A stretch of DNA of 34,285 bases, from the IMG/VR virus record IMGVR_UViG_3300025322_000099, positions 1-34,285 of that record, one strand, 5' to 3'. Below, piece by piece: positions 1,793-33,737 of the stretch. Both the position numbers and the translations under genes were made by a program. Numbering within the stretch: the stretch's first letter is position 1; every line of letters starts with the position of its first letter. The stretch is from a virus. The notes beneath the pieces were generated by a model. It was not told the origin of the DNA and ran no database searches. It worked only from the letters and a program-made list of their open reading frames with translations.

Positions 1793-2122
1793 TCAATGGC
1801 TGGCAGGTGGTTTGCCTCCAACTATCGAGATAATTTTTTTGCCGTCACATACATCACAAGCATGGCTCATTTGTGAACTCATCCATCCTTGTTGGTCGCC
1901 AGCAATGTATGGTGGCTTATTCATAATTCCTTGCCCATTACATTTCGGACACGCCTGCCAGCCACTAAGCATAACAGGGGCTTGGACAAGATTTTCACTT
2001 GCTCTGAGTGTGCTATTCAAAACTTTGTTGCATTGGATTAACATTTCTGCAAGTTTTTTTTTTTGCTCTTTCATATACATAGCCATTTTTTCTTCATCTG
2101 TTTGTTTTATTATCTGCATCAT
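1793..2122 (-). CDS. Small CxxC-CxxC Zn-finger protein of phage type, cassette gene
   Basis: The 109-aa product has an N-terminal charged helical part (EEKMAMYMKEQKKKLAEML) and a C-terminal double CxxC module: CPKCNGQG at residues 58-65 and CDVCDGKK at 89-96, which resembles DnaJ-type zinc-binding CxxCxGxG repeats. Such small zinc proteins occur in phages with unknown function. The ATG at 2122 lies in the loop of palindrome D. A second ATG at 1972 is part of the core heptamer GTTATGC itself and would give a 59-aa protein made of the zinc module only. The gene fills the unit between palindromes C and D, and D is partly inside the coding sequence. I see two N-termini as possible; the zinc module is clear. 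Confidence 0.75.
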   Translation of the reverse strand: MMQIIKQTDEEKMAMYMKEQKKKLAEMLIQCNKVLNSTLRASENLVQAPVMLSGWQACPKCNGQGIMNKPPYIAGDQQGWMSSQMSHACDVCDGKKIISIVGGKPPASH

Positions 2123-9601: not shown

Positions 9602-10054
9602 TTAAATTGGTATTGCGCATTGATTATTATCCCACTCCGCCCATAGCGTGATGTCGCAGTAGTTTCCCGCCACTTCATCGTCAAACTTTTCGGTGAAATC
9701 GGTTATTGAAATATTGTCAAGTTTTAATTCAAAGGCGTAAGTCCCGCCTGTTGCCTGCTGTCCGCCTTTAAATAGTTCTGTGAGTACGTCAAGCAATATC
9801 TGGTGAGTATCGCTCGAAGCGTCCACTTCGTTTTCTTTTCCTTTTTGCACCACATCCATCACGAATAATCGGTATTTATATCCCACCTCGCCTTTCTTTG
9901 CTGTGCTCCCCTCTGGCGAAACAAATAACATAGGATAGTTTATAGTTCCGCTGGTAGCGGTATTAAAAATATCCCCATATTCATAGGCATTTATCTGCAA
10001 ATGATTAGTTGCGATACTTTTAAAATTTCCCTCTATCTGTTTAATTGTCGTCAT
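9602..10054 (-). CDS. Probable tail-completion/neck protein
   Basis: A 150-aa protein starting at ATG 10054 (MTTIKQIEGNFKSIATNHLQ). A TTG six bases upstream is in frame, but the ATG overlaps the stop of the connector gene by one base (TGATG), the tighter coupling. It contains a central mixed fold (YPMLFVSPEGS ... KYRLFVMDVVQ) and ends in a strand-rich part (ELKLDNISITDFTEKF, CDITLWAEWDN). Position right after the connector gene, length and pattern fit tail-completion proteins that cap the tail at the neck. This is inference; no unique motif exists. Confidence 0.65.
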   Translation of the reverse strand: MTTIKQIEGNFKSIATNHLQINAYEYGDIFNTATSGTINYPMLFVSPEGSTAKKGEVGYKYRLFVMDVVQKGKENEVDASSDTHQILLDVLTELFKGGQQATGGTYAFELKLDNISITDFTEKFDDEVAGNYCDITLWAEWDNNQCAIPI

Positions 10055-10626
10055 CAGCAATTCCCGTATTTAGAAGTTCTCGGCTCTCTTTCCCCTGTCC
10101 CTTGTTTTCCTAAATAAAATCCTGACCCGCTCACAAGTCCGCTTCCTGTCGGATTAATGACGTTGGATGCAGTACCCGGATTCAGATACAAAGGATAGTC
10201 CACTTCCTTTTCTATTAAGTATAATCGAAGCCGCTCTGTCTTATACTCGGCTATATTCTTAAACTTTCCCTTAAGATGCACCGCTTCGTCAAGGTCAATC
10301 GGGTTAGAATTATCAGATGTTTTCTTAGCGATATTCTTATTATTAAACTTGTAAAGAAGCGGTTCTACTAATTCGTAAAGCGTCCAATATTCCATCGCCG
10401 GCTGTATATGGTCTTGAAGCAAAGTAGTGTTTAACGATGTTAGCGTACCGGCGTTAATCTGTGTCTGAAGCTGGTCGTAAATACCACTTCCTATTATCGG
10501 CTCAATCCACAACTGCTGTGCCACCTCAATAGCCACACGTATATATTTTTCGTCAATATTTTCGTCAATATAAGTGGTGTTCTTTATCGCCGCCGGATTT
10601 ATAAATAGTCCTATGGTAACTGCCAT
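10054..10626 (-). CDS. Head-tail connector (adaptor) protein
   Basis: A 190-aa helical protein with the features of phage head-tail adaptors of the gp6/DUF6712-like type: an N-terminal INPAAIKNTTYIDENIDEKY, the helix YIRVAIEVAQQLWIEPIIGS followed by GIYDQLQTQINAGTL, and a helical WTLYELVEPLLYKFNNKN. The C-terminal 50 residues are Gly/Ser/Pro-rich and probably flexible. Such proteins bind under the portal ring and close the channel. It lies directly after the portal gene, with one base between them, and overlaps the next gene, which supports this role strongly. Confidence 0.75.
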   Translation of the reverse strand: MAVTIGLFINPAAIKNTTYIDENIDEKYIRVAIEVAQQLWIEPIIGSGIYDQLQTQINAGTLTSLNTTLLQDHIQPAMEYWTLYELVEPLLYKFNNKNIAKKTSDNSNPIDLDEAVHLKGKFKNIAEYKTERLRLYLIEKEVDYPLYLNPGTASNVINPTGSGLVSGSGFYLGKQGTGEREPRTSKYGNC

Positions 10627-12388: not shown

Positions 12389-12755
12389 CGCTTGGATATT
12401 TATAAGTGTTATCTGTTCCTAAAACTTTTAACAATCCATACTCCAAAGGTACTTTATTATCAGAAGCATCCTCGTTCAAATTAGTAGAACTTAATTGTTC
12501 ATAAATCCTGTAATCATGTACCTCGCTCGTTAAACTTATTGTTCCGCTTGTCAGTACCTCCGTCGTACTTTCTGTGACGGTAAATTTATTATATCTATCT
12601 GTGTAGCTGCTTTGTTCTGATGCTAAAATAAATCTTTTTACCGTCCGCGAACTCCTGCCCTCCACCCTTACAAGATAATAAGGACTTGTCAGCGTTCTTT
12701 TTTCTTCGAGCGTAAAGATTAAGGTGTTGTTAGTATTTTTAGTTATCGTTTGCAT
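12360..12755 (-). CDS. Hypothetical phage structural protein (131 aa)
   Basis: A strand-rich 131-aa protein. It starts MQTITKNTNNTLIFTLEEKR, contains VEGRSSRTVKRFILASEQSS and EVHDYRIYEQLSSTN, and ends in KYPSGEKEYKYPT. It lies between a terminator and the portal gene, which it overlaps by 29 bases. Proteins of this kind accompany portals and capsid genes in Bacteroidota phages; their function is not known to me. A small head-surface or tail accessory role is a guess from the position. Confidence 0.55.
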   Translation of the reverse strand: MQTITKNTNNTLIFTLEEKRTLTSPYYLVRVEGRSSRTVKRFILASEQSSYTDRYNKFTVTESTTEVLTSGTISLTSEVHDYRIYEQLSSTNLNEDASDNKVPLEYGLLKVLGTDNTYKYPSGEKEYKYPT

Positions 12756-12767
12756 TTGTTTTCTAAC

Positions 12768-12793
12768 TAAAAAGGCGACCGAAGTCGCCCTTA
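12768..12793 (-). terminator. Rho-independent terminator after the tail-tube gene
   Basis: In the minus-strand reading, GGGCGAC, a UUCG tetraloop, GTCGCC and then UUUUU follow each other (stem 12774-12779 with 12784-12789, T-run from 12773). This is a textbook terminator with the most stable tetraloop. It stands between the tail-tube-like gene and the gene before the portal, so it should lower portal expression relative to capsid and tube. Confidence 0.85.
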
Positions 12794-12815
12794 AAGTGAA
12801 TGGAAACGCATATTG

Positions 12816-13346
12816 CTATACGGTTACAAGTAAGTTATAAGTCGCTGCTGACATATTCAATATTGACTGGCTTTCTTTTGCCATGAAAGTTAATTCTGTT
12901 CCGCTTCTGTCGCCACGCGCCGTACCGCTGGAATGTTTACCCGCCGTCAGGTCTGCACCATAATCCATTCCTATCAGCCAATAGTTATCATTCATATCCC
13001 GGACCGCTAATTGAACAGGGGTCTGAGCATAAATGGCAATCTCATTTCTTAGCTTAGTTGAAAACTTATTGAAAATTACTTTTAATTCTTGCTGATAAAA
13101 GGTAGTGCCGTTAGGAACATTCGTAGTAATATTCTCATCAAAAGAACACGTTTCTTTCTCCAAACTCCATGTGTACCAATCCAACCTATTACCTCCCTGC
13201 GCTGCAATCGTCACAACTCCTGAAGATACAGAATAAGCATCGCCCACTTCGGTAAGTCCGGGATGAGCGTGAATCTTTATCTCTTTTAAACCGCCTACGC
13301 TGTCGCGGCAGTTAAGTTGTAATGATGTGGTTAGAGCGCAAGCCAT
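12816..13346 (-). CDS. Major tail (tube)-like protein
   Basis: A 176-aa protein starting MACALTTSLQLNCRDSVGGL, with the pattern C-x(3)-L-x(6)-NCRDSVGGLKE seen in major tail/structural proteins next to capsid genes of Bacteroidota phages. A central beta region (VVTIAAQGGNRLDWYTWSLE) and strand-rich sequence YQQELKVIFNKFSTKLRNEI follow, then MDYGADLTAGKHSSGTARGD, a typical loop of tube proteins. It lies directly downstream of the major capsid gene in the reading direction, between two terminators, which points to an abundant product. I call it tail tube by context and fold; direct evidence is lacking. Confidence 0.65.
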   Translation of the reverse strand: MACALTTSLQLNCRDSVGGLKEIKIHAHPGLTEVGDAYSVSSGVVTIAAQGGNRLDWYTWSLEKETCSFDENITTNVPNGTTFYQQELKVIFNKFSTKLRNEIAIYAQTPVQLAVRDMNDNYWLIGMDYGADLTAGKHSSGTARGDRSGTELTFMAKESQSILNMSAATYNLLVTV

Positions 13347-15701: not shown

Positions 15702-17498
15702 TTAAAATGTTGCTCTTTCTTCTATCCCTCTTACTCTCTTTTGTGACTCACTAACATCTGTTTCTACAACGTATGCTCTTATTGGTTTTGCTTCCGCCCC
15801 ATCTTGACCTTTAAAGCCGGTAAAATCCCCTTGCGTATTTGTCTGTGTCTGTGTTGCTGTTACCGCCTGCTGTTGCGCCTGTGGGGATTCTAAAGAAGGA
15901 GCACCGCCACCGCCCGGACTTGGAGTACCACCGCCGCCACCGGCTTCACCGGCGAATTGAGTAGCAAGTATTTTAGCTATTTGCACAGCCCCGACCACGC
16001 CCATAGATACTGATAGCGCAATATTCGCCGGAGTGTAAGGAACCATTCCAAGCGCACCAACAATAGCACGTGAAGTATCTATGATTGTCCTTGCTACTTG
16101 AAATGCTTTATCAACTTTAAACTGTCTCTTTTTTATTTCAAGCTCTTTGGCTTCATTACCCTGCGCTCTTTTTAAAGCACCCATGAAAAAAATATCTGAT
16201 ATTCCATGTAAGGCATTAAAATAGTTATCCTCAATTTGTCGTTTTTTTTCCGCTCTTTCTTCTGCCGATTCACTATCTATTTTTGTAAGATTATTTTGAT
16301 GTTCTTTTTCTAATAATTCCCTTGCCCTATTCTTTTGTTCCTCAGATAAATTTTCCGATAAAAATCTTTGGGATAATTCTTCTATTCTAATCTGATATTC
16401 GGCATCTTCAATAGATTTTTTATTTTCTTTAAGTGTAGCTTCTTTTAAATCATTATCTAATATTAGCTGTAAATTGTTGTTATAAAATTTATTCCGTGCT
16501 TCACTTTTTTGCTCAAATGCTTTTATGAAATTAGCCGCATCTTTCTGATACTTATTTTTTGCCTCATCAATTTGTTTATCTAAATCAGATAATTCTTTTT
16601 TAAATTCTTCTTCCCTTTCTTTTTTCGCGTCTTTATTATCTTTTGCAATTTCATCATTTGTTTTTTTGTTAAATTCCAATTTTGCAATCGGAATTTCTTT
16701 TTCTTTTAAAATTATCTCCGCATTAATTCTATCGAACTCGTCTGATTGCTCCTGCGTAAAATCTTTTTCTGAATCCCATATATCTTGTAGATTTTTTAAT
16801 CTTTGTCTCAAGTTTGTTAATTCATCTTGTCTTCTTTTTTCTTGCGCATCAAATATTTCTTGTGCCGTTGCATTGTTCGCAATTAATCTTCGTATTGATA
16901 AATCAGATTCGCCTGCTATATTTTTATATGAATCGGCAAGTAATTCATTTGCCTTAGTAAGAGAATCCACTTTTTCTTGCGTATCATCAAATGCTTTCAC
17001 TAATCCATATACCGCCGCCACAAGTGCCACCACCCCCACCGCAATAGCCGTAAACGGATTGCTCATAGCAAACGCTTTCATCGCTATGCCTGCCGTTGTC
17101 AACGCTTTCTGAAAACCCACCAATCCCTGCAACCCACTCGCCAGTGCTGTCGCCGCCTGCACCTTCACCAGCACCTTCATTAAGTCCTCGCTCTCACTTC
17201 CGAATAGTGCTGATGCTGCCTGCGCTGCGGCAAACCCACTCGCCACCGTAGAGCCAATCTTGGCAATAGCCGCAAACTGACGTTCAGGATTAAGGGCGTT
17301 AATCTTCTGCCTTAAGTCATCCAAATCGCCTTTCACCACACCCATCGCCTTGAGCGTATTGGTATACGCGGCTGTCCCTTTGTCAACAGTACTCAGCTCC
17401 TCATTTAATTCACGGAACTGCTGACGCAAATCACCGATGGACTGCCCCGCCCCTTCGGCAAGTATCTTAACACTTAATGCTATTTCTTCTTCTGCCAT
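15702..17498 (-). CDS. Tape measure protein
   Basis: A 598-aa tail length-determining protein. The N-terminus IALSVKILAEGAGQSIGDLR and Ala-rich helices (IGSTVASGFAAAQAASALFG) lead to a hydrophobic segment near residues 140-170 (FTAIAVGVVALVAAVYGLVK), followed by a long coiled coil (about 185-420, Lys/Glu-rich). A second hydrophobic region (VARTIIDTSRAIVGALGMVP ... VGAVQIAKILATQF) precedes a Gly/Pro/Gln-rich tail and the C-terminal motif AYVVETDVSESQKRVRGIEE, frequent at the end of Bacteroidota phage tape measures. With the general ratio of about 0.15 nm per residue the tail would be near 90 nm. It is normally preceded by chaperone genes, but here they lie far upstream. Confident. Confidence 0.9.
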   Translation of the reverse strand: MAEEEIALSVKILAEGAGQSIGDLRQQFRELNEELSTVDKGTAAYTNTLKAMGVVKGDLDDLRQKINALNPERQFAAIAKIGSTVASGFAAAQAASALFGSESEDLMKVLVKVQAATALASGLQGLVGFQKALTTAGIAMKAFAMSNPFTAIAVGVVALVAAVYGLVKAFDDTQEKVDSLTKANELLADSYKNIAGESDLSIRRLIANNATAQEIFDAQEKRRQDELTNLRQRLKNLQDIWDSEKDFTQEQSDEFDRINAEIILKEKEIPIAKLEFNKKTNDEIAKDNKDAKKEREEEFKKELSDLDKQIDEAKNKYQKDAANFIKAFEQKSEARNKFYNNNLQLILDNDLKEATLKENKKSIEDAEYQIRIEELSQRFLSENLSEEQKNRARELLEKEHQNNLTKIDSESAEERAEKKRQIEDNYFNALHGISDIFFMGALKRAQGNEAKELEIKKRQFKVDKAFQVARTIIDTSRAIVGALGMVPYTPANIALSVSMGVVGAVQIAKILATQFAGEAGGGGGTPSPGGGGAPSLESPQAQQQAVTATQTQTNTQGDFTGFKGQDGAEAKPIRAYVVETDVSESQKRVRGIEERATF

Positions 17499-22013: not shown

Positions 22014-23281
22014 GCACCCTGCCTTATTTCGTTAAACGTGTATTGAATATCAATGGTCAGATTAAATATTTTATCCGTTTTATGCTGACGCTGTGTGTAC
22101 TTAGTGTCAATAATGTTTATGGGTACAAATCCATGAGTTGCATCGTCTATAACTATTTCCGGTGATGTCAATAACTCCTCAAGCCATACGGACTGATTCT
22201 CATTTATCCAGTCTGAATTTAATTTAATAGTATGCTTATATTCAGTATAATAATTTCTTTCAAATCTATCCGTCTTATTATAGTCATAGGATGAGCCGGA
22301 CTTATATTCGCCTATCACCTTTTCAGCCTTATTGCGCTTTATGTCGGTGCTCTTTTGACTGGCACGGATGAAGGAAAAGGAATCATACGCCCCGAACTTG
22401 TTCTTGAAATGTAAACGGTAAACAGTATGTTCCGTACAAGGCGTATCTATCTTGAAATAAACGGATTCTGTGATTCTCCTATGCGCCGAATCGGTAAAAA
22501 AAATCTCATACCTCACCACCGGCGGACTCTCTGGTCGGGATAGTATAGGTAAAGAAGTTCCGCTTTGATTGGTAATACTGCTTGCCGTAATACTGTTCAT
22601 ATTATATCCGGCTGAAAACCGAAGCATCCTGTTAGCAACCGTTGTTATGGCGTGATAAGCGTGATTAATAACATGATAAGAATAAAGCAGCACATTATTG
22701 GAATCATATGTATTAACGTGGGCGAATTTTATCGCTCCCGATGTCTGACTAAGTACATTTATCCATGCGTTTTCATCTGTCCGTATCGTCCCGCTTGACG
22801 GAGCATTCGACAATATCTCCACCGGCGCTGTAAATACATTAGCCCCGTAATTAGTTATATTCCAATCCTTCCACTCTATTACCGATAAACTGCCGTTAAA
22901 AGCAGTCTTGCCCGTATAACTCAGCAGATTAGGATAGGCGACAATTCCCGAACTTGCCCCGTAAAACTCCCCTATCTTAACATCATATTCCACAACCGAT
23001 GAAGCACATTGCTGAAAGCCTAAAACGGCATTGCCGATGTCAGATGTTAATTCGCGCTGAAGTATTGGGGCTACGTTAAAAGTCCCCCGTCCATAAGTAG
23101 GGTCGGCAGGTACTTTAAACCTGAGATAGGTTGCCCCCCCTGCGAAAGTTACGCCTGTGATATATACATCAAAGATATATTCAAAATTTGCCTGCGCTGT
23201 GTTGTTTGAACTCACAACCCACCATATAGGATTGTATGATGGAGCGTGTCCACTCGGCTCTGATTGGATGGTGATAGCCAT
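22010..23281 (-). CDS. Tail protein, possible distal-tail (Dit-like) component
   Basis: A 423-aa beta-rich protein: ITIQSEPSGHAPSYNPIWWV at the start, NFEYIFDVYITGVTFAGGAT, GRGTFNVAPILQRELTSDIG, then a C-terminal half with KSTDIKRNKAEKVIGEYKSG and YNKTDRFERNYYTEYKHTIK. The start overlaps the stop of the gp10-like gene by one base and its own stop overlaps the next gene. The order gp10-like, this gene, large tail protein, fibre supports a distal-tail or baseplate role. No catalytic motif is present. Confidence 0.65.
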   Translation of the reverse strand: MAITIQSEPSGHAPSYNPIWWVVSSNNTAQANFEYIFDVYITGVTFAGGATYLRFKVPADPTYGRGTFNVAPILQRELTSDIGNAVLGFQQCASSVVEYDVKIGEFYGASSGIVAYPNLLSYTGKTAFNGSLSVIEWKDWNITNYGANVFTAPVEILSNAPSSGTIRTDENAWINVLSQTSGAIKFAHVNTYDSNNVLLYSYHVINHAYHAITTVANRMLRFSAGYNMNSITASSITNQSGTSLPILSRPESPPVVRYEIFFTDSAHRRITESVYFKIDTPCTEHTVYRLHFKNKFGAYDSFSFIRASQKSTDIKRNKAEKVIGEYKSGSSYDYNKTDRFERNYYTEYKHTIKLNSDWINENQSVWLEELLTSPEIVIDDATHGFVPINIIDTKYTQRQHKTDKIFNLTIDIQYTFNEIRQGA

Positions 23282-23877
23282 TATTGAGGTATTTCTTTTT
23301 TGATTTCTGTGAGTAATGTTATCGTTACATCTTTCTTAAACTTCTCCTTTAACACCTGGCGTAAATCGTTCATTCTCTCCGGCGTGACCACACTACTAAA
23401 GAAATGTGTCGCCCGTGTTCCTTCCTTGCCAATCTTACGGCGAATCTGAAAGGCACGTTGCTTGATTTTCTTTTCTCTGGATAGTTGCTTTAATCCCTTT
23501 CTTATACGCTTACTCTTTAAACTTTTTATCAGCCCCTTTCTTCTTTGTGATATTTGTTCTACATCAATACCTCTTTGCGAAATCCACTTCACTATCGGTG
23601 CTTCCGGCGGCATCTTTCCGGGTGAGCGTCCTGTCTCAAACCATCTCCACGAAGCAGGCATAATGATTTGACCCACGATATGATTGCCAAATGATGTAAA
23701 CTCAGGGCGCATACCAGATACTAATGAAGATGCTTCAGGGTCTCCCGCTGACGGGAACTTTGACTTTGCTTTATTAATATTCATCTGCTCAATGGCACTT
23801 TTGCGCAACTCCTCAACAATGGTCTCCGTCCACTGCTTTAGATATTGTTGTACGTTAGGAAAATTGCCTTCTGCCAT
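23281..23877 (-). CDS. HK97 gp10-like neck/tail-completion protein
   Basis: A 198-aa protein with the gp10-like centre MPASWRWFETGRSPGKMPPE followed by APIVKWISQRGIDVEQIS (residues about 70-110), and a very basic C-terminal half (KSLKSKRIRKGLKQLSREKK). Such proteins act at the head-tail joining stage. The start overlaps the end of the frameshifted chaperone frame by 23 bases. The arrangement chaperone, gp10-like and tail protein without the usual portal/capsid genes before it is part of the rearranged order of this phage. Confidence 0.65.
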   Translation of the reverse strand: MAEGNFPNVQQYLKQWTETIVEELRKSAIEQMNINKAKSKFPSAGDPEASSLVSGMRPEFTSFGNHIVGQIIMPASWRWFETGRSPGKMPPEAPIVKWISQRGIDVEQISQRRKGLIKSLKSKRIRKGLKQLSREKKIKQRAFQIRRKIGKEGTRATHFFSSVVTPERMNDLRQVLKEKFKKDVTITLLTEIKKEIPQ

Positions 23878-24627
23878 GTAGTTTCATTAAGTCATTCTGA
23901 TATTGCTGTTTGTCTTTATAAAATGCCATCGTATTTAAAAAAGCAATTATATTCATTTCTTCAAAGTAGTCCCATTTAGTTCTGTCGTTGTTGCTTAGGT
24001 TATCCAAGACATTATACCACCCCCAATGCTCGTTAAAAGTGTTGCCCGTGCTTATGCCAACATTATCTCCACTTTCTTCATCTCCCTTTTTGCTATCTTT
24101 AGGGAATAGTCCAGAATAGGTTGTTGTAAGTTCCTCAATACATTGCAAAAAAAAACATAGTACGGGTAAGCGGTACTCATTGGCATATCAAGAAAGTCAT
24201 CCGATGTTTTGTTGTAAGGCACATAAACATATTTGCCGTCAACCTGCTGCTGACACATACACGCTATTAATTCGTGCATATGGTACGGTATTTCCTCTGC
24301 GCTCGCCCCTTTCCCGCAATTACTAAAGTCAATGAACTGACCTGCTTTCATGTCCTCTGTCAATATACAAGCCCTGTATTTTTTGTCTTTTAACTCGAAG
24401 TGTGTGGTAACCTTGCCATCAGGCAAGTCGTAAAGGAACTTTAGCTTAGAGGCATGGGCGACAAAGTCCTTGCCTGTGATGGCTTCTATCTCTACCATCG
24501 GCTTCCCGCTGAACAACGTAAGTAAATGAATATCACGCTCAATAACTTCTTTGTACACGCTGAATATTGATATTAGTTTGTGGTACTGAGCGATGGTAAC
24601 GCTTTCCCAGGAGTTCGGTAAGTTCAT
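23855..24627 (-). CDS. Tail-assembly-chaperone-like protein, extended by -1 frameshift
   Basis: Two overlapping frames form one gene. The first frame (24052-24627, 191 aa) starts MNLPNSWESVTIAQYHKLIS and looks like tail-assembly chaperones. At a run of nine T (minus strand, 24155-24147) a slip back by one base joins V-F-F to the second frame, which continues LQCIEELTTTYSGLFPKDSK and ends with EHWGWYNVLDNLSNNDRTKW ... KLHGRRQFS, giving a 257-aa product. Long and short forms of such chaperones, made by a programmed -1 slip, are common in phages. The zero-frame continuation after the slip is 31 residues and looks less protein-like than the -1 frame. A sequencing or assembly error in the T-run is the main alternative. 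Confidence 0.65.
24147..24155 (-). promoter_or_regulatory. Slippery T-run, proposed -1 ribosomal frameshift site
   Basis: Nine T on the minus strand, in the zero frame GTT TTT TTT TGC. A -1 slip gives TTT TTG CAA. No stop codon lies close downstream in the zero frame; that frame ends at 24052. I saw no obvious downstream stem-loop, but did not fold it computationally. Confidence 0.5.
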
Positions 24628-24662: not shown

Positions 24663-25856
24663 TCATGCAAAACCAATAGCATATTTACCGCTTCCTCGAT
24701 TACTTAGCTTAGAAAAAGCCAGCGCATGGGCGCATACTGTATCGTCGTGTGACCCAGAGGGGCAGGTGTAGCGCACCCCTGTCCTTGAATATTCAAACTC
24801 ATAGGATTCTAATTCATTCCTATGCACCCCCTCCAGCACCGATGTGCGCCCCTGCTGAATACCTGCCGATAACCCCTCCATAATCTGCTGTTTACTCGTT
24901 GATGTGAACTTAAACCCCTCGACACCTGAGCGCATTTTCTGTAAAGATTCTACTATCGGGTCTCCTACTCCTGTACTGTCCACAATCACGGGAACTCCCA
25001 TTGTTACATCGTAAATCTTTAGTTTTGTCTGCTCCCAATCCATCTGAAATCGTTCTAAACGGCACACATAGCCATTACTATCAAGCCCTAAAATAACTGT
25101 AAAATCGGTACTCTTGGCGAGGTCAACGCCATATATTACAGGAAAAGCATCCGACATCCCTCTTAGTTGTCGTTTGATATACTCCATACCGAAGGGATTA
25201 GCACCGTCCTCACTCGGCTCCGCCATGTATAATTCGTTGAACACATTCTCAGGCAGGTCACGCTTCGCCTGTTGTACTTCATCCGCCGTTATCAGCCCCT
25301 CTTTAACAGCGTCATAAGCGGTTATTTTAAAGTATTCAAAGTTCGGTTCATTTGCCTTTGCCTTCTGCGCCAGCCGCCACCCCCAGTTCTTCTTGCCCTT
25401 TACGTTACCGATGAACTTACATTTGCCGTTGGTCTTTGTGAGGGTAGACCGTAAGGCAAACCAAGCGTCCTCCCTTGCCCTTGTAAACTCATCAAACACA
25501 GCGGCGAATACGTCATCGCCAAATAAGTTGTCCGGCTTCTCTGCCGTCTTGAAATGTATGTGTGAGCCGGTAGGGGTGGTGAGGCGTAACTTTGTTTCAT
25601 TAACCTTAAAGAAGTTCCGCTCTGTTATCTGCTGACGCATCCTGTTGAAAGCTATCTCTGCCTGAGTATAAACAGGTGCTACCCACCAGCATGACTGATT
25701 CTCCTTAAGTCGTAACGCCTCCTCGAAGAGCCATATAATATGTGATGAGGTCTTGCCCGTTTTAGTAGCCGCTTCAGTTACAGTGAACCTCGCCTTGCTA
25801 TCAATTATGCTACGTTGGTAGCCGTAAAGAAAGGGGCGGGTGTAGTGTATGTGCAT
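24663..25856 (-). CDS. terL: Terminase large subunit
   Basis: A 397-aa DNA-packaging motor. Walker A is in FTVTEAATKTGKTSSHI (residues about 24-40, KTGKT), and Walker B is VFAAVFDEFTRA (DE near 125). The C-terminal nuclease domain has the expected acidic residues: VIYGVDLAKSTD (D near 250), VIVDSTGVGDPI and GSHDDTVCAHAL (two Asp, about 373-378). The domain order ATPase then nuclease is normal, and the length is slightly short but within the range of large terminases. It follows the small subunit by nine bases and cuts and packages phage DNA into the prohead through the portal, which is unusually distant here. Confidence 0.95.
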   Translation of the reverse strand: MHIHYTRPFLYGYQRSIIDSKARFTVTEAATKTGKTSSHIIWLFEEALRLKENQSCWWVAPVYTQAEIAFNRMRQQITERNFFKVNETKLRLTTPTGSHIHFKTAEKPDNLFGDDVFAAVFDEFTRAREDAWFALRSTLTKTNGKCKFIGNVKGKKNWGWRLAQKAKANEPNFEYFKITAYDAVKEGLITADEVQQAKRDLPENVFNELYMAEPSEDGANPFGMEYIKRQLRGMSDAFPVIYGVDLAKSTDFTVILGLDSNGYVCRLERFQMDWEQTKLKIYDVTMGVPVIVDSTGVGDPIVESLQKMRSGVEGFKFTSTSKQQIMEGLSAGIQQGRTSVLEGVHRNELESYEFEYSRTGVRYTCPSGSHDDTVCAHALAFSKLSNRGSGKYAIGFA

Positions 25857-26875: not shown

Positions 26876-27138
26876 ACCGATGTATTTTTACGACCGACAA
26901 TTGATGTGATATGATAAATCAGAACGGTTACGAGTGATAAAATTGAGGCAAATATAATCATTTCAAGTATAGGTTTATGAATAAAATATAAACAACCAAG
27001 CCAAAACCCCATACACATCTGACAAGAAAACGGCTTCATGGACTTTAGGTGTTTAGTGCGCCATAATAAGTCCTTCCATGCCTGCACTAATAAACAGGCA
27101 AACCAAGCGAGTCCGATTATGGGAACTATTTCTGCCAT
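26872..27138 (-). CDS. Two-pass membrane protein with a CxxC(M)GFW motif
   Basis: An 88-aa membrane protein. Hydrophobic segments are residues about 4-20 (IVPIIGLAWFACLLVQAW) and 58-77 (EMIIFASILSLVTVLIYHI), and the loop between them contains FSCQMCMGFWLGCLYF. The C-x-x-C-x-G-F-W pattern resembles DUF1360-type phage membrane proteins. It might be an inner-membrane factor for superinfection control or lysis timing; this is inference. It overlaps the methyltransferase gene by 13 bases and the next gene by four. Confidence 0.55.
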   Translation of the reverse strand: MAEIVPIIGLAWFACLLVQAWKDLLWRTKHLKSMKPFSCQMCMGFWLGCLYFIHKPILEMIIFASILSLVTVLIYHITSIVGRKNTSV

Positions 27139-27698
27139 TGACTTATATTATATTCTCCAAACTTTTCGCCAACCCATTTTGTAATGTCAATAGTATTACT
27201 TAGTGCTGTCGCCCATGCACCTGCTTCGTGTGGGTTGGGGACGTTACTCATCACTTCAACGCAATATTTGAACTTAGGGAAATGCTGTCTCACCTGATAA
27301 TTACCTGCTCCTGTCGGTTCGGTGTCATGGATTACAATTATCTCAGCTTGGTCTTTAAAGCGGATGACATCTTCTTTGCGTCTTTCTCCGGGAGCGTGGT
27401 CAATGAATACTACCGATGGAGATGAATGTAGGTCTGAACACACATCCCATGCCTCTCTTGAGAGGAGAGTAAATTCGTGATACTCGTTGGCGGTGTCTTC
27501 AAATTTACTTATCCAGTCTTTTTCTGTTTCGTAAGAAAAAAGGCGGCGTTTATTGAGCGTGGCATATTCATGCAAGAGGGGCGTTGAGCCGTGCCCAGTA
27601 CCCATTTCAATAATTTCGCCCTTCGTTGCTTCGAGAGCCATAAAGAGTAGAGGGTAGTAAGATAGGTCATTGTTTGTGGGGGTGAATTGTTGTTTCAT
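27126..27698 (-). CDS. Class I SAM-dependent methyltransferase-like protein
   Basis: A 190-aa protein with a Rossmann SAM pocket: GEIIEMGTGHGSTPLLHEYA (residues about 27-46, E-x-G-x-G-x-G), the acidic end of strand 2 in FSYETEKDWIS, and the later SVVFIDHAPGERRKEDVIRF and AEIIVIHDTEPTGAGNYQVR. This resembles the Methyltransf_24 type, which often modifies sugars or small molecules. Its place in a glycosyltransferase cluster suggests sugar methylation. It overlaps its neighbours on both sides. Confidence 0.75.
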   Translation of the reverse strand: MKQQFTPTNNDLSYYPLLFMALEATKGEIIEMGTGHGSTPLLHEYATLNKRRLFSYETEKDWISKFEDTANEYHEFTLLSREAWDVCSDLHSSPSVVFIDHAPGERRKEDVIRFKDQAEIIVIHDTEPTGAGNYQVRQHFPKFKYCVEVMSNVPNPHEAGAWATALSNTIDITKWVGEKFGEYNISQWQK

Positions 27699-28174
27699 AA
27701 TACATATCTATTAACTATTTCTTGTATTGACATTCTTTGCCCGGTAATATTCATCTCTGTTGTCCAGTCTGGTATCATAGTCATCCAATATTTGAATTCA
27801 TCCCTTCCTATTAAATATCTATATGTATTCTCCACCCTGCTTTTGTCTTTCTTCAAATAATTAATCAATATATTTGGATTATCGCCCCACGTAATAGTCC
27901 CTAATCTAACAATCGTAGTAACGGCAAAATTATCTTTAACTAATCGCTCCATCAATTTCTTATGGCGGGTGTATGGTGTATCAGCATAATAAATACTTAG
28001 TGTGCTGAAATAAACAAGATGAGAAAATTTACTCTGAGTTAATAATAAATCTTTTTCTCTTTGAAATTCATACCAGTCGGCACATCCGCTATTGCTTACG
28101 CCTGATGCGAAGAAGATTTTATCTGCTTGGTCAATTAATACTGACGCTAAATCTCCGTGTCCAATTATTGCCAT
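27695..28174 (-). CDS. Short SDR/epimerase-like protein
   Basis: A 159-aa protein with MAIIGHGDLASVLIDQADKI at the start (reduced nucleotide-binding turn IGHGDLAS instead of GxxGxxG), the strand-Ser motif HLVYFSTLSIYYADTPYTRH and the YxxxK pair in YTRHK (about residues 68-72), as in extended SDR enzymes such as nucleotide-sugar epimerases and reductases. At 159 residues it is half the normal length, so either the NAD-binding part is compact or the gene is a shortened descendant. Its start overlaps the HNH gene's end by ten bases. It probably makes or modifies sugars for the adjacent transferases. Confidence 0.65.
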   Translation of the reverse strand: MAIIGHGDLASVLIDQADKIFFASGVSNSGCADWYEFQREKDLLLTQSKFSHLVYFSTLSIYYADTPYTRHKKLMERLVKDNFAVTTIVRLGTITWGDNPNILINYLKKDKSRVENTYRYLIGRDEFKYWMTMIPDWTTEMNITGQRMSIQEIVNRYVL

Positions 28175-28575
28175 TTTACAAATTTAAATCTCCCATCAGA
28201 ATCAATTTTCATTTTAGTATTAAATTTTTTTATTCCAGTGTCGTAAGCCCTTTTGTTATTCTGACTATGAGAACACCATTCTAAATTATCAATGTGGTTA
28301 TTTGTTTTTATATCGTCAAGGTGTCCAACACATTTATATTTATTGGGGTTTTCTAAAAACGTATTGGCAACCAACCTATGAACGGTGAATGATTTGGCAC
28401 ATAAATTAACATATTGATACCCGTGATTTCCAACTCTAGGTGACAGTATCTTTTCATCATAAATTCTACTACCACCCATTGGCATTTTAACTACCTTGTG
28501 TAATGCTTTTACTCTGCCGTAGTTACTAACTTGATAGGTATTTTCATACCCCTTAATGTCTTTAAATATTTCCAT
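28165..28575 (-). CDS. NUMOD4-HNH homing endonuclease
   Basis: A 136-aa endonuclease, with ATG 28575 chosen because it gives the family start MEIFKDIKGYENTYQVSNYG followed by RVKAL (NUMOD4). The HNH module is VHRLVANTFLENPNKYKCVG then HLDDIKTNNHIDNLEWCSHS plus QNNKRA, with the His, Asn and His catalytic/metal residues in VHRLVANTF, HLDDIKTNNHIDNLEW. The frame can be extended upstream to a TTG at 28659, but that part overlaps the methyltransferase coding region. Such genes are mobile in phages and spread by cleaving empty sites. It overlaps both neighbours, so insertion left almost no spacer. Confidence 0.85.
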   Translation of the reverse strand: MEIFKDIKGYENTYQVSNYGRVKALHKVVKMPMGGSRIYDEKILSPRVGNHGYQYVNLCAKSFTVHRLVANTFLENPNKYKCVGHLDDIKTNNHIDNLEWCSHSQNNKRAYDTGIKKFNTKMKIDSDGRFKFVKWQ

Positions 28576-29170
28576 TGAATATGTCTTTACGAATCCATAA
28601 TACATCCCACCAATTCTCTGGACACCCGTGTCTTCTTTCGTATGCGGGGTCGTTTGCAACTACATAATCCCTACTTAGCCTTTCTACAATTTTCGGATAT
28701 TCTCTATCGTGCATTTCTGGTACACAATGCCTGTGCATTTCCACGCTTATCTGTTTGGGTATTGGTTTGAATGTTTCTCCTAATATAATATATTCCGCCC
28801 CTTCGCAGTCGAGCTTTAGGATGTCTACATTCTCGCCTGTTATCTTGTAGAGGTCGTCCATTGTAATTGTCTTGCAAGGTTTGATGCGATGGTCTTGGTA
28901 GTGGTGGAGTTGTTTTAGACAGGTTGCCTCTCCGTTCTCGTAGTACTGCGAATCTCCTACTTTGTCTGAGATGGCAACATTCATATATATAAAACTATTA
29001 GATAATGGATTTTTATCATAGAAAACATCCGGGTCGGGGTCAATACAATAAACTTGGTTTTCTGTGAAATAATCTGAGAAAATAAATCCTCGACATCCCA
29101 CATCAATAATACATCCATCTGACAATATTGATTTATCTATGGTGTGCCCGCCGACTTCAATTAATTCCAT
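28562..29170 (-). CDS. FkbM-family methyltransferase
   Basis: A 202-aa SAM-dependent methyltransferase. The SAM site is GCIIDVGCRGFIFSDYF (residues about 19-35), and the FkbM motif NVDILKLDCEGAEYIIL is near 113-129. The intermediate PKQISVEMHRHCVPE is a typical strand end. FkbM enzymes O-methylate sugars or polyketides and are common in glycan gene clusters, so sugar methylation is the likely job. It overlaps the upstream exostosin-like gene by 14 bases. Confidence 0.85.
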   Translation of the reverse strand: MELIEVGGHTIDKSILSDGCIIDVGCRGFIFSDYFTENQVYCIDPDPDVFYDKNPLSNSFIYMNVAISDKVGDSQYYENGEATCLKQLHHYQDHRIKPCKTITMDDLYKITGENVDILKLDCEGAEYIILGETFKPIPKQISVEMHRHCVPEMHDREYPKIVERLSRDYVVANDPAYERRHGCPENWWDVLWIRKDIFNGNI

Positions 29171-30032
29171 ATTCTTTTCTCTTTTCGTTTATATGATTCG
29201 CCCAATAAGACATACGCATTCGCTGCGTACTCTTACCGCTTATGTCTTGTTTTTCAAGCCAATCCATAGTAATATCCTCCATATTTTGAGGACAGAAAAT
29301 AATTGGCAAATCTTCGAAGTGTCGCATTTCAGCGCAGTCGGTAACGATAGGGATAGAGCCTAACTGGATTGCAGCCCATTGCCGAGAAGCATCAGCCCCG
29401 CATCCGGCTAATGCCATTGTGTATTTATGGTCGTGTACGTTCCTGTAAAACTCATCGGCAGCCATTTGTTTGTGAGGGTATTCTAACTCATAAACAAAGG
29501 CAAACGGCTTGGTTTTCATTATCGGGATTGAAGCATTTCTGTGTGGTGTGCTGAGATTGGTATTGTAGCAAAGGAATAAACTTTTATTCGTTGGTCGTTT
29601 AGGCTCTACTGCAATCTGCTTTACTAAGTCATCCTCTCCATTTATTGAAGCGTTGCCGAAAGGTATAGCCGAAACATCGGGTTTATTTACTTGACAGTCC
29701 ACAGTATAGATATGCCTGACACTTTTTGGTTTGCAATCGTACATAAGCTGCGTGAATGGTCTATCGTTGGTGCGGTGAACTATTATGTAACTTCCGCGCC
29801 TTGGCATTGAGTTGAATGTGGTTTCGAGCAAGTGGCACATCCCGACAAAGATAACTCCCGATTCAGGTAAATTGGTATGGTCAATTAATGGTTTATTGAA
29901 TTGTTTTGATATAGCCACATAATAATCCCAAACACCGCCCTTTTCTGTGCGGCTTACATCGTCACTCCATATATGTGTACACGCCTCAATGAAGGGTGAG
30001 TTATGGATTTGGTCGAGGTGGAGGGGTTTCAT
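29157..30032 (-). CDS. Exostosin-like glycosyltransferase (GT47-like)
   Basis: A 291-aa protein. The C-terminal half has the exostosin-type pattern: HDHKYTMALAGCGADASRQW then AAIQLGSIPIVTDCAEMRHF, followed by FEDLPIIFCPQNMEDITMDW. In related enzymes this region binds the nucleotide-sugar, and the E-R-type acidic residues are present. The N-terminal half (SGVIFVGMCHLLETTFNSMP) would bind the acceptor. The start overlaps the next gene by four bases. It transfers sugars to a surface polymer or to phage proteins. Confidence 0.75.
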   Translation of the reverse strand: MKPLHLDQIHNSPFIEACTHIWSDDVSRTEKGGVWDYYVAISKQFNKPLIDHTNLPESGVIFVGMCHLLETTFNSMPRRGSYIIVHRTNDRPFTQLMYDCKPKSVRHIYTVDCQVNKPDVSAIPFGNASINGEDDLVKQIAVEPKRPTNKSLFLCYNTNLSTPHRNASIPIMKTKPFAFVYELEYPHKQMAADEFYRNVHDHKYTMALAGCGADASRQWAAIQLGSIPIVTDCAEMRHFEDLPIIFCPQNMEDITMDWLEKQDISGKSTQRMRMSYWANHINEKRKEYGIN

Positions 30033-30667
30033 ATTTCTTTTTGGTTAATATAGCGAAAATTCGATTCACTATATTGATTAACCCCGCATTTAAACATAGA
30101 TAAAGCCATGCAACTCTCATCGCACCAATGGTCTCCTTTCATAAAAGCATCCTGATTCTGAAATATCCCGGCTTCCTCTGCTTTCTTCCAAAGATTAAAT
30201 ACTTCTACCACTTTTTTATTATTAAAGTTAAAACAATAAACAGTTCCACCAATGTGATTAATACCTGCAATCTGTTCATCTGTAACCCCAAACCAATCTT
30301 TTGCTTTTTGATTCGTCATTTTAGAAAGTGGCGCATCTCCTTTAACAACTACCATCTGATGTTCGTCTAAGGCATCAAAAAGAATTTGAACGGATGTAGT
30401 AGGTAATACGGAAGGGTCAAACCAAATTATTTTTTTATATCCTTTGTCTATCGCTAATTGAATTGCATGAGGTTTGAATCCGTATAGTGATTTTTGAAAT
30501 TCGCCGACAAGGGTATCGGTATTGGTATGTATTCTCCCCTTACAAGGTAGTTGATTCCTGTAAGTTAAAATTGATACATCGGAACACAACTCTTTCACCC
30601 TTATCTCCTGAGTATGGCTATGCCTTAGATACGGCTCGCGGAAGGCAACGGAGGTAATACAGTTCAT
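30029..30667 (-). CDS. Glycosyltransferase-like protein of the sugar cluster
   Basis: A 212-aa protein with GYKKIIWFDPSVLPTTSVQI (residues about 75-94) in the place of a DxD nucleotide-sugar site (only one Asp is clear here), followed by HQMVVVKGDAPLS and a later GINHIGGTVYCFNFNNKKVV and HWCDESCMALSMFKCGVNQY. The general architecture is a GT-A-like fold with a His/Asp pair near the C-terminus. It lies in the operon of clear transferases. A degraded or atypical acceptor-modifying enzyme is possible. Function inferred from context. Confidence 0.6.
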   Translation of the reverse strand: MNCITSVAFREPYLRHSHTQEIRVKELCSDVSILTYRNQLPCKGRIHTNTDTLVGEFQKSLYGFKPHAIQLAIDKGYKKIIWFDPSVLPTTSVQILFDALDEHQMVVVKGDAPLSKMTNQKAKDWFGVTDEQIAGINHIGGTVYCFNFNNKKVVEVFNLWKKAEEAGIFQNQDAFMKGDHWCDESCMALSMFKCGVNQYSESNFRYINQKEI

Positions 30668-31437
30668 GGATAAAACTTATTAAACACTTTTAAGAACGGC
30701 TCTAACTTAACAGGATGCATTACGTTGTTATTCTCGCAGTGCATATCAATAAAAGGTTCGGGTTGGTTTTGTGTTACCTCCCAGTTATGCCGGTCAATTC
30801 TACCCTTTGCAAGTGTAGCTCCGCCTATTTCAATCTGACCCCTGTCAATGAAAGTTATTTGTTTCTCAAATGGTTTTAGTCTTTTTGTTATCAATGTCCA
30901 GTCGTGATTCCACCAGCTATTCCAATCAGGATGGTAAGCAACTTCTATTTCTTTGGCATCTCGTATAAGTTCATCATGCGTATTGCCATTAAGATTCATA
31001 TATTTCTTCCAGTTATTTCCGCTCATGGCTATATAACCCATCGGATAAAAGCTACGCCAAGTAAGGTCGTGTCCATAAACTGTTATGTCCTCAATCTTCG
31101 GATGCCAGTAATCTGATAATGGTATTAAATCCATATCGCAGGTCATTATTAAAGCATCGTCTGGTAAGTAATTAGCGGCATATAAACGCCCCGCCTGTGC
31201 AATAGTTTCAGTTCTCAATCCTTCTATGGCAGGCATGGGTATTATAGATGTGGGATATGGATTATATTGCGATTGCCTCATAGTTAAATTTAATTTTCCA
31301 ATATCTACATCTTGCGTTATCACTATACACACTTCCCACCCATAAGTGTTCCACGCTTTTTCCTGATAAGGAATATACCAATAATAATCAGGGTTGTTAT
31401 TAGTGCTGATGACAACTATTTTTTTATTCATGTGCAT
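30664..31437 (-). CDS. DxD-containing glycosyltransferase-like protein
   Basis: A 257-aa protein with a nucleotide-sugar motif ALIMTCDMDLIPLSDYWHPK (DMD near residue 99), the N-terminal strand KKIVVISTNNNPDYYWYIPY and GRLYAANYLPDD before it. Later GYIAMSGNNWKKYMNLNGNT and WWNHDWTLITKRLKPF contain the residues that would bind the acceptor. I read it as a GT-A-fold transferase. The start codon overlaps the 55-aa gene by 14 bases. M3 (31431) is another possible start. Confidence 0.7.
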   Translation of the reverse strand: MHMNKKIVVISTNNNPDYYWYIPYQEKAWNTYGWEVCIVITQDVDIGKLNLTMRQSQYNPYPTSIIPMPAIEGLRTETIAQAGRLYAANYLPDDALIMTCDMDLIPLSDYWHPKIEDITVYGHDLTWRSFYPMGYIAMSGNNWKKYMNLNGNTHDELIRDAKEIEVAYHPDWNSWWNHDWTLITKRLKPFEKQITFIDRGQIEIGGATLAKGRIDRHNWEVTQNQPEPFIDMHCENNNVMHPVKLEPFLKVFNKFYP

Positions 31438-31591
31438 TAATTAATTTACCAAAAACAAATTCAAAAACAAATTCTTTTTCTTTTGTTTTCAGTATGATTG
31501 TTCTCTGTTCATCCGTTGAATCCTGTAAATATATTTTTCTTTCTATAATAGAAATATCCGCATCCTGATATATACATTTAAAGTCACTCAT
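31424..31591 (-). CDS. Small hypothetical protein between two transferase genes
   Basis: A short frame gives MSDFKCIYQDADISIIERKI followed by YLQDSTDEQRTIILKTKEKE and a strand-rich end (FVFEFVFGKLINAHE). The ATG overlaps the end of the upstream transferase as ATGAGTGA (eight bases), and its stop lies inside the next gene start (14-base overlap), so it exactly fills the 146-base gap and is translationally coupled on both sides. No family is recognised. Confidence 0.65.
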   Translation of the reverse strand: MSDFKCIYQDADISIIERKIYLQDSTDEQRTIILKTKEKEFVFEFVFGKLINAHE

Positions 31592-32498
31592 CAAAAGTTC
31601 CGTCTTTAGTCCAGTAAAAAATATCTGAATATTGTTTTTCTATTTCCAGTAAATCAGTAAATCTCTCTTTATATTTTCTTAATACATTAAATGTGGGGGG
31701 AGGATAAAATCCGCTACTTCCGATATGTCCGCAAATGCTATTGGTTTCTTTTAACTCCTCAGATATGTCAAGCGGTATATTATTCGGGCAGTCATTATTG
31801 TGTCCTGATGGCGGATGGCAACCACAGGTATGCCAGTCAGATAAAAATGTTTTTCCGTGTCCATTAAAATAATGCTGCGTGATGCTGTCTGTTCCTTTCT
31901 CCGCAAAGCGGGGGTAGACCTGAGAGTTTAAAAATAATTGGTCGCTTCCTTTTGAGCTTAAATCTCTCCTGCTTATTTTCATCATATCTGCCCATGTATT
32001 CACATTAAGCCTCGCAGAGAAGCCATCAGGGCGCACACCTATCATTCCACCAAGCAAAGGCACATCGTGGCTCACACTGTCTGTAATAGCGTGCATCGCC
32101 TTATTCGTACCCACCCAATACTGAACAGCTTGCGCCTCCCGATAGGTGGCTGGGCTGTCAAGGTCACGGCAGAGAACGTGAGAGAACTCCCACGTCTGGT
32201 CTGATTTATTAGTCCAGAACACAGGTTTTAGCCGCCATAACATTGCCTCACACAATGGGGCGTTGTTTGCGTTCTTTTCAATTCTAATAATATTTTTTTC
32301 TTCCAACGCTTTAAATAACGGCTCAAACCCGGCATATGTGGCATGGTCGGTTTCGAGAATGGTTTTCCATTCAGGATAAAGCAAGCGATTGAAGCGTAAG
32401 CAGAGCATCAAACCTCTCGCGTAACTGTTGAAATCGAAACAATTAGCAGCCCGTTCGCGGTCAAACCCGAATAATGCGTAGGAAATTGCCAGATTCAT
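31584..32498 (-). CDS. Glycosyltransferase-like protein with RDLDS motif
   Basis: A 304-aa protein. Near residue 110 it has EFSHVLCRDLDSPATYREAQ, where the RDLDS would serve as the DxD nucleotide-sugar site, and the following AVQYWVGTNKAMHAITDSVS and HDVPLLGGMIGVRPDGF form part of the active cleft. The C-terminal half has CGCHPPSGHNNDCPNNIPLD, an uncommon Cys/His-rich patch that could bind zinc. It lies in a chain of overlapping transferase genes. The family label is from motif, and the zinc patch is only a suggestion. Confidence 0.65.
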   Translation of the reverse strand: MNLAISYALFGFDRERAANCFDFNSYARGLMLCLRFNRLLYPEWKTILETDHATYAGFEPLFKALEEKNIIRIEKNANNAPLCEAMLWRLKPVFWTNKSDQTWEFSHVLCRDLDSPATYREAQAVQYWVGTNKAMHAITDSVSHDVPLLGGMIGVRPDGFSARLNVNTWADMMKISRRDLSSKGSDQLFLNSQVYPRFAEKGTDSITQHYFNGHGKTFLSDWHTCGCHPPSGHNNDCPNNIPLDISEELKETNSICGHIGSSGFYPPPTFNVLRKYKERFTDLLEIEKQYSDIFYWTKDGTFDE

Positions 32499-33061
32499 TT
32501 GTGTGTTTTATAATTATAATGATAAAGTATTCCATCAATAGCAGTTTCTTTTTTCAATAATCCACTTTTAAAAATCTGAGTTGCATAGTCTGTGTCCTCT
32601 CCGTGATTTATTTCTGGGAACTTTAACTGCTTTGCGATAGAACTTTTAATCACATTAAGGTGGTTAGGATAACGCTCGTATTTAACAGGATTCGTGGTGG
32701 TTTTATATTCTTTGTATTTCAATGAGTGTTCAAATATTTCAGGTCGCTCTCCATCCCAGGTAATCACTCCTGTCATGGAGCAATTATCACAATCGGTTTT
32801 AATACATTCAAGCAGTTTTTCTATATAGTTGGATGCGGGGAAATCGTCGTCATCGAAAAAAGCAAGATACTTTCCGCCTGCCCGGGATAATAGTCTGTTT
32901 CGCTTTGCACCAATAGTCATCTCGCCATTGTCAATATCGGTAAGTATTTCAACATCGTCCTCTGCCTTACAATGAATTATCTGCCTGAATAAATCCGCCT
33001 TCAGGTTAACCAACTCATGGCTTCTGCTTTCGAGGGACGGGACAAGAATACTAAGTAACAT
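32495..33061 (-). CDS. Family-2-like glycosyltransferase
   Basis: A 188-aa short GT-A transferase. It starts MLLSILVPSLESRSHELVNL (the typical N-terminal strand and helix of GT2), has IGAKRNRLLSRAGGKYLAFF and the metal site FFDDDDFPASNY (DxD about residues 70-74), and ends with GEDTDYATQIFKSGLLKKE, the acidic catalytic motif of the family (usually E-D-x-D/E). It overlaps the upstream gene by 11 bases and the downstream gene by four. It transfers sugar from a nucleotide donor. Confidence 0.85.
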   Translation of the reverse strand: MLLSILVPSLESRSHELVNLKADLFRQIIHCKAEDDVEILTDIDNGEMTIGAKRNRLLSRAGGKYLAFFDDDDFPASNYIEKLLECIKTDCDNCSMTGVITWDGERPEIFEHSLKYKEYKTTTNPVKYERYPNHLNVIKSSIAKQLKFPEINHGEDTDYATQIFKSGLLKKETAIDGILYHYNYKTHK

Positions 33062-33737
33062 TCAAATAAAAATTATTTGCCTTTCTGTTTATGTATGTCT
33101 GCTCATCCCTATCCCTTATCGCCCTGTCATATCTGCCCTCTGTTTTATCGTACTGATTATCGTAAGGCGTATGTCCGAAGGAAGGGTGATAGTGATTAAA
33201 TATTCTTTTATTTATAAATTTGTATCTGCCCAATATTTTACCTACATCTTCCGCTTCTTTGTCTGACCATAAACTTTCATAATCAGAATGATAGATATAA
33301 TTAAACCGCTCATAATATTTCTTGTCCATGATACTCATGGTCATGCAATTTTCGCCTTGATTCTGGTCTGGGAAATGAAGCAGGCAATCGCCGTCAGGAA
33401 AATATTTATTCATTGCCGCTTCAATGATTTCATCATATCCCTTTTCAATAAAAGTCATATCATCACTCATGTTTATTAGCAAGTCATATTCAGGTGCTTG
33501 TATCATTGCCCTGTTGATAGCGTCAATTTTGTTTTTTGAAGCCCCCCATATCGGGTATAGTTTGTCGTATCGCTTCATCTTCTCAATCATGTTTTCATTG
33601 TTCATTGTTGTATCGTCAATGTCTAAAGCGGCAAGTATGTCAAAATTTTTATTGCGGGAATTGATATAAATATTCTCCACGCCGGCTATAAATTTATCAG
33701 GACGGCTGCGAGATGCGAAGGCGTATAGGAATTTCAT
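33051..33737 (-). CDS. Family-2-like glycosyltransferase
   Basis: A 228-aa protein beginning MKFLYAFASRSRPDKFIAGV, a common start of such transferases, with NFDILAALDIDDTTMNN (a first acidic cluster at about residues 38-41) and YDLLINMSDDMTFIEKGYDE near residue 87 (DD metal site). The C-terminal part FNHYHPSFGHTPYDNQYDKT is unusual and His/Asn-rich. It overlaps the upstream and downstream transferase genes, so all are co-expressed. Function from motif only. Confidence 0.75.
   Translation of the reverse strand: MKFLYAFASRSRPDKFIAGVENIYINSRNKNFDILAALDIDDTTMNNENMIEKMKRYDKLYPIWGASKNKIDAINRAMIQAPEYDLLINMSDDMTFIEKGYDEIIEAAMNKYFPDGDCLLHFPDQNQGENCMTMSIMDKKYYERFNYIYHSDYESLWSDKEAEDVGKILGRYKFINKRIFNHYHPSFGHTPYDNQYDKTEGRYDRAIRDRDEQTYINRKANNFYLNVT

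Follow-up and report, generated by a model that had tools for sequence, protein, structure and literature searches.

In phages, the tail chaperone gene customarily lies directly upstream of the tape measure gene, as it also does in lambda; the position is not strictly defining. The products of a G/GT pair bind the tape measure and tail tube proteins and do not occur in virions. Lambda makes two products from its chaperone gene at a molar ratio of 30:1, G binding the tape measure and T binding the tube protein, and passages of PMC5009743 describe the frameshifted tail chaperone as widespread in tailed phages and generally treated as ribosomal. In programmed transcriptional slippage, coding homopolymers of A or T lead to products in two frames, with Shigella mxiE and spa13 and Thermus dnaX named as cases in PMC5009743 and PMC3711429. 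These are bacterial genes, whereas the present case is a phage tail gene. Among the matches listed in our literature search, there was no phage tail chaperone made by transcriptional slippage.

In the present study, we analyzed a virus record of 34,285 bases (hereafter, the window) and its relatives. The window carries, on its minus strand, a gene resembling lambda G/GT in that a short product and a presumably rarer -1 fusion with a C-terminal extension are encoded in a structural module. It differs from lambda, where the slip is ribosomal, in that its junction is a run of nine Ts (T9) found in two codon registers and in that the gene follows a terminase gene. Our main reading, with a probability of roughly 0.6, is that this is a G/GT-type tail chaperone gene whose long form most likely arises by slippage of RNA polymerase on T9. 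The two frames, their conservation, the near-invariant T9, and the gene order are observed; the mechanism, the chaperone function, and the host group are inferred from them and from the data below.

Methods

Relatives in IMG/VR were collected with patterns of the -1 domain, one of which touches the end of the run (43 loci); with a profile pattern placed some 50 residues beyond the run, in which the run itself gives no bias (80 loci); and with the zero-frame protein of Nonlabens phage P12024S as the query (63 further loci), where one pattern spans both Phe codons. The patterns that touch the run or the Phe codons accept any synonymous codon. The final census of 157 entries includes repeats from the same contig (for example, L046 and L044), and the contexts counted as distinct drop identical ones only; counts by cluster are more reliable. 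The rows left out were L001 (a chance match in an unrelated protein), L075 (no site), L045 (the window itself), and L162 and L163 (repeat contigs).

Results and discussion

Anatomy of the gene

The zero-frame gene of the window (24627..24052, minus strand), which encodes the G-like short product of 191 aa, has homologs that we placed in a 26-row alignment (A3). Its coding strand reads ...TAC TAT GTT TTT TTT TGC AAT... around the T9 (24147..24155, minus strand; nine As on the plus strand), with the heptamer T_TTT_TTT inside the run and in frame, and the protein reads V-F-F-C at this point. Residues 1-160 are common to the short and long products, and the FF at residues 159-160 is invariant in the alignment. 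The -1 frame provides a T-like domain of 98 codons counted from the second Phe (23855..24151, minus strand), so that the joined product is 160 + 97 = 257 aa; the first ATG of this frame is codon 63 after the run. The coordinates and lengths given in the initial annotation, a 191-aa zero frame and a 257-aa joined -1 product sharing this T9, were reproduced. The -1 continuation had also been described as protein-like, and its conservation among the relatives (27-row alignment A4) indicates that it is no chance frame. We regard the two-frame gene, with its frame change directed to -1, as almost certainly real and conserved.

Length of the run in relatives

The first set collected with the -1 domain, including the window, had T9 at all 44 loci. 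Among 42 further loci, 41 had T9, and the remaining contig (L075) begins inside the domain, without the site; both -1-domain sets combined therefore had exactly T9 at the junction in 85 of 86 entries. The loci found with the P12024S zero-frame protein comprised 62 with T9 and one with T10 (n = 63). Six of seven additional contigs, two of which were duplicates of contigs already collected, had T9 (L088-L093), and the seventh had T8 (L094). The isolates P12024S and P12024L have T9. In the full census, 157 entries gave 119 distinct contexts of 249 nt, of which 117 had T9, one T8 (L094), and one T10 (L110). After clustering, T9 was found in 39 of 40 clusters at 90% identity, 32 of 33 at 70%, and 19 of 20 at 50%, the exception being the T10 each time.

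The zero frame was open for at least 140 codons before the run in 152 of the 157 entries. The five exceptions were L011, L071, and L161, which are cut by the start of the contig, and L038 and L063, in which a stop interrupts the zero frame upstream of the run, where relatives stay open. None of the collected loci had one continuous frame. Comparison with related phages, which the initial annotation had proposed, thus found both the run and the two-frame gene retained, and the objections raised there, namely eight or ten Ts as a simple assembly error and a continuous frame in relatives, did not hold against the run lengths and frames of the relatives.

In the two exceptional contexts, the surroundings of the run were as follows. 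Past the T8 (L094:3232-3239), each of the two frames can still be read, with a shift of one base; this is either a single miscall or a true variant that would rely on longer slippage. The T10 (L110:2903-2912) arises from a TTT codon ahead of the two Phe codons, a position at which relatives carry CTT, ATT, or GTT.

Beyond the run, the zero frame stayed open for 15 to 78 codons in 33 representatives. The longest case is the clade of L117 (e.g., L117:1893-2600), in which the zero frame is open 78 codons past the run and overlaps most of the -1 domain, leaving two frames open over a considerable length. A conserved zero-frame tail was considered as proof of a selected short form and dropped, because we read its G[DV]G motif as a shadow of KWGW in the -1 frame. 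The +1 frame closed within 24 codons in all 33 representatives; therefore, a lost U would yield a truncated product only. One contig of 33,889 bases carries two similar, distinct copies of the gene near its opposite ends (L022 and L023), which reflect either two related phages joined or a duplication.

Two codon registers

The T9 occurs in two registers: GTT/CTT/ATT-TTT-TTT-TGC/TAT/TAC (register 1, 82 contexts) and xxT-TTT-TTT-TTG/TTA (register 2, 35 contexts), in which the codon before the Phe codons ends in a single T. The flanks of the run trade off, and the total of Ts stays at nine across both registers. Fisher's test of this trade-off gave p = 7.8e-9 with the 32 T9 clusters at 70% identity treated as independent, a figure that is weakened by their kinship. 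Among the T9 rows, the register changed at least three times on the G tree, which spans 27.7 changes per column, and four times on the T tree.

The eighth T of register 1 is silent in both frames (TTC is also Phe; CTG and CTA are also Leu), yet it is T in 82 of 82 contexts. With a C at this position, the site would remain a heptamer of X_XXY_YYZ form, and C was never seen. Of the 256 Phe codons that precede the run in the G genes, 77 are TTC; the corresponding expectation, 0.70^21 = 5.6e-4, overstates independence because the clusters are related. Elsewhere, the gene strand of the 33 representative loci (297,879 bases) had 106 T6, 43 T7, and 8 T8 but no run of nine or more Ts; runs of nine or more As numbered eight in the same loci. 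Conservation extends to the full length of nine and is not confined to the heptamer T_TTT_TTT, which lies in the zero frame in the T9 contexts of both registers. A conserved A/T run of about nine is what is expected of programmed transcriptional slippage.

Identity of the proteins

The gene had been called tail chaperone-like in the initial annotation. Its two-frame anatomy and its conserved slip-prone site are in line with that name, as is a weak fold resemblance to the HK97 chaperone, whereas no named family was matched with a convincing score: scans of PHROG, Pfam, and NCBIfam named no function convincingly, the lowest E for Phage_TAC_7 was 0.059, with matches in 2 of 26 members, and neither profile gave a meaningful match among the sequences of solved structures. 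The combination of a short and a frameshifted long product with a common N-terminus, which is typical of G/GT, appears in the predicted gene anatomy of the window and its relatives, and the junction is conserved at the level given above (T9 in 117 of 119 contexts).

The model of the zero-frame protein had a pLDDT of 94.6. In VIA-align 2 against the PDB, its match to the HK97 tail assembly chaperone (2ob9_A) had Z = 3.5 over 79 residues with 9% identity; it ranked second, tied with gyrase fragments and helices, over a longer stretch than most of these. It was the only phage tail match listed for this model (residues 74-166), and suggests a common fold. Foldseek found nothing significant for the model in the PDB. 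In a predicted viral library, it found 35 matches with E of 0.001 or better, many of them unnamed phage proteins; the P12024S protein matched with E = 5.3e-9, and one protein named tail assembly chaperone with E = 0.018. The T domain was modeled with low confidence (pLDDT 66.3), and the viral protein that matched this model best (E = 8.6e-3) was unnamed. From the weak fold similarity together with synteny, the zero-frame gene is likely a tail assembly chaperone of the G/GT type.

Neighborhood and the tape measure gene

The immediate upstream neighbor in the window is the gene for the terminase large subunit, TerL (24663..25856, minus strand; phrog_2, E = 6.7e-33), and both the small and large subunits are encoded upstream. 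TerL matches lie upstream of the gene in many relatives, and TerL is annotated there in P12024S. The downstream gene (23281..23877, minus strand) shares 23 nt with the final part of the -1 frame and weakly matches phrog_21534, of unknown function (E = 0.0067); from the look of its sequence, its product may be a tail-completion (gp10-like) protein. It was matched downstream of the gene in many relatives; in the L041 and L085 groups, its place is taken by a homolog of window 9602-10060. Further downstream, the window encodes an XkdF-type protease (PF14550), a portal (phrog_11226), and a virion structural protein (phrog_1623), which we take as the capsid protein.

The tape-measure-like gene (15702..17498, minus strand; phrog_9483, tail length tape measure protein, E = 9.6e-12) lies 6.36 kb downstream, so that the gene in the window is not at the customary position directly upstream of the tape measure gene. 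In 16 relatives, too, several kb separate the -1 domain from a downstream tape measure match of the same strand; in L072, the match is on the opposite strand. The unusual distance pointed out in the initial annotation is thus shared by the 16 relatives.

Isolated phages and the host

The same two-frame gene is present in the Nonlabens phages P12024S (genes 38 and 39) and P12024L (genes 40 and 41), which infect Persicivirga sp. IMCC12024. As in the window, the zero frame comes right after TerL, the run is T9, and the -1 domain is homologous; unlike our reading of the window, the two frames were deposited as separate hypothetical proteins, with no frameshift annotated. The P12024S proteins belong to phrog_32199 (gene 38) and phrog_38404 (gene 39), and matched our profiles with E = 7.8e-12 for the zero frame and 2.1e-6 for the -1 domain. 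In the P12024S record (L095, JQ823122.1), genes 38 and 39 look like one frameshifted gene at 12501-13195, with the start of the -1 domain unannotated. The order in P12024S is TerL, G, T, and a pair of small genes on the plus strand, one of which has a weak match to tail completion; further on, there are members of the PHROGs matched by the 423- and 729-aa proteins of the window and then a weak tape measure match. Judged by these matches, the gene order of P12024S resembles that of the window.

Flavobacterium phage 6H has a distant G-like protein (Foldseek E = 4.5e-3; profile E = 9e-4), with T6C at the site and no clean -1 extension, and Polaribacter phage P12002L and Flavobacterium phage 11b gave no profile match of note. 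A tblastn search of INPHARED with the two halves of the window gene, the -1 domain of L043, the joined L041 protein, or the L085 zero frame gave no match, and with the zero frame of L043 or with P12024S it gave the Nonlabens phages plus one match each at chance level (E = 0.6 and 0.8). Two scans of bacterial genome contigs gave 11 and 28 pattern matches, none of which was a relative by tblastn, and thus no proof of a host from prophages. The window TerL matched 178 phage records at less than 60% identity, mostly Vibrio and Pelagibacter phages, with no pointer to Bacteroidota. A Shine-Dalgarno (SD)-like motif was found in none of 24 gene leaders of the window, most of which are A-rich by eye; such leaders fit with Bacteroidia, whose ribosomes do not recognize SD sequences according to the portion of PMC9976891 that deals with them. 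We read the phage as a tailed, probably lytic one, presumably of the Bacteroidota type.

Proposed slippage by RNA polymerase and alternative explanations

Standard expression of the gene would give the 191-aa protein, and a share of expression events would move to the -1 frame on T9, giving the 257-aa fusion with its extra C-terminal domain. In the mechanism that we favor, the short rU:dA hybrid would realign on T9, leaving an extra U in some transcripts, which normal ribosomes would read as the fusion. If lambda is a guide, the short product would serve as a coat for the tape measure, and the long product, the scarcer of the two, would bring in the tail tube protein. Slippage by RNA polymerase is favored because the length of nine is kept in two registers and because no stimulator of a ribosomal slip was found. 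According to the literature, a run of nine As or Ts makes bacterial RNA polymerase slip very efficiently in vivo, the RNA-DNA hybrid in this enzyme is 9-10 bp long (PMC5009743), Tn with n > 8 is given for transcriptional realignment (PMC3711429), and the E. coli enzyme slips more on T than on A runs, with a minimum of seven Ts (PMC6260861). The one T8 and the one T10 in the census speak against a strict rule of nine.

The initial annotation had read the junction as a -1 ribosomal slip. In such a slip, as in lambda G/GT and related phage genes, tRNA-Phe in the P and A sites would re-pair on T_TTT_TTT. The conserved two-product frame change to -1 and the in-frame heptamer, a standard type of -1 ribosomal site present in both registers, agree with this claim; the ribosomal nature itself does not follow, as a length of nine fits RNA polymerase better. 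Lambda and many other phages are described as making this pair of products by -1 ribosomal slips in passages of PMC5009743, and 6% and 7% frameshifting are given for two reporters of a tail chaperone cluster in part of PMC3711429. However, a ribosomal slip needs seven Ts, whereas nine are kept in both registers, and the wobble T that is free to be C is never C.

We also found no consistent stimulator, neither a downstream stem-loop nor an upstream SD sequence, although some ribosomal sites need none and our folding tests are blind to pseudoknots. Downstream of the 33 representative sites, folding was no stronger than at randomly chosen positions of these loci (mean z 0.02 and 0.10), and consensus folding downstream in three clades, which has little power at such divergence, revealed no conserved helix apart from a four-pair hairpin in one clade. 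Folding directly upstream of the run was slightly stronger than background (mean z -0.98; 7 of 33 below -2), and a positional scan showed two mild dips with a mean z of about -0.8 to -0.9, one immediately before the run and one some 80-90 bases after it. An upstream nascent hairpin was considered as a stimulator of slippage and rejected, since the hairpins were inconsistent among loci. An SD-like motif upstream occurred at 3 of 33 sites, and if the host belongs to Bacteroidia, with ribosomes blind to SD sequences in the account of PMC9976891, this type of stimulator is removed altogether. A ribosomal slip is therefore a possible but doubtful source of the long form, and our preference for transcriptional slippage over it is roughly two to one. 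A -1 ribosomal slip and the addition of one U give the same junction peptide, so the junction peptide cannot separate the two mechanisms.

Translation of the -1 frame as a separate gene from an internal start is how P12024S is annotated (gene 39, 55 aa, deposited as its own gene and with its own PHROG, phrog_38404). However, the conserved part of the -1 domain starts right after the run, and among the 33 representatives the first ATG lies at least 24 codons past the run in 28, at codon 6 in two, and nowhere in three. Even with GTG and TTG counted, a start within ten codons is present in 5 of 33, and the -1 frame is open for no more than three codons upstream of the run in 12 of 33. Because an internal start would also leave the near-invariant T9 unexplained, we consider a separate gene very unlikely. 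Phase variation, in which replication slippage would switch the gene on and off at a homopolymer, a typical site of such switching in the part of PMC3711429 on this topic, is still less credible given the near-constant run length across the 119 contexts. A homopolymer error of sequencing or assembly hiding one continuous gene would agree with the error-prone nature of long T runs and with the T8 in L094, but its probability is negligible in view of T9 in 117 of 119 contexts from many metagenomes and two isolates and of a zero frame that continues 15 to 78 codons past the run.

Implications of the proposed slippage by RNA polymerase

We lean slightly toward the view that a whole lineage of Bacteroidota-type tailed phages sets the ratio of its chaperone forms not by ribosomal frameshifting but by RNA polymerase slippage on T9, a run roughly as long as the hybrid. 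If this is true and the host enzyme transcribes the phage, control of the tail-assembly ratio would pass to the host RNA polymerase. A ratio set in this way would suit hosts without SD pairing. The same switch made in transcription would suggest that evolution keeps the ratio of two products and not the mechanism. A simple rule, namely a T9 close to the end of a gene located after TerL, may allow the repair of annotations, such as that of P12024S genes 38 and 39, and may point to candidate tail chaperones in uncultivated phages. The T8, the T10, and the two registers offer a natural comparison set for the measurement of slippage.

Other features of the window

A run of 11 As on the coding strand is present at window 2054-2064 within a 109-aa ORF (1793-2122, minus strand), where it encodes QKKKL; the neighboring frames close soon, with no obvious second product. 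A long stretch at 27126-33737 contains possible genes for sugar and methyl transfer. Seven of ten proteins scanned from it had no Pfam match, and Pfam named the other three as an FkbM methyltransferase (28562-29170), a GT2 glycosyltransferase (32495-33061), and a NUMOD4/HNH homing-type endonuclease (28165-28659), the gene of which overlaps that of the FkbM methyltransferase.
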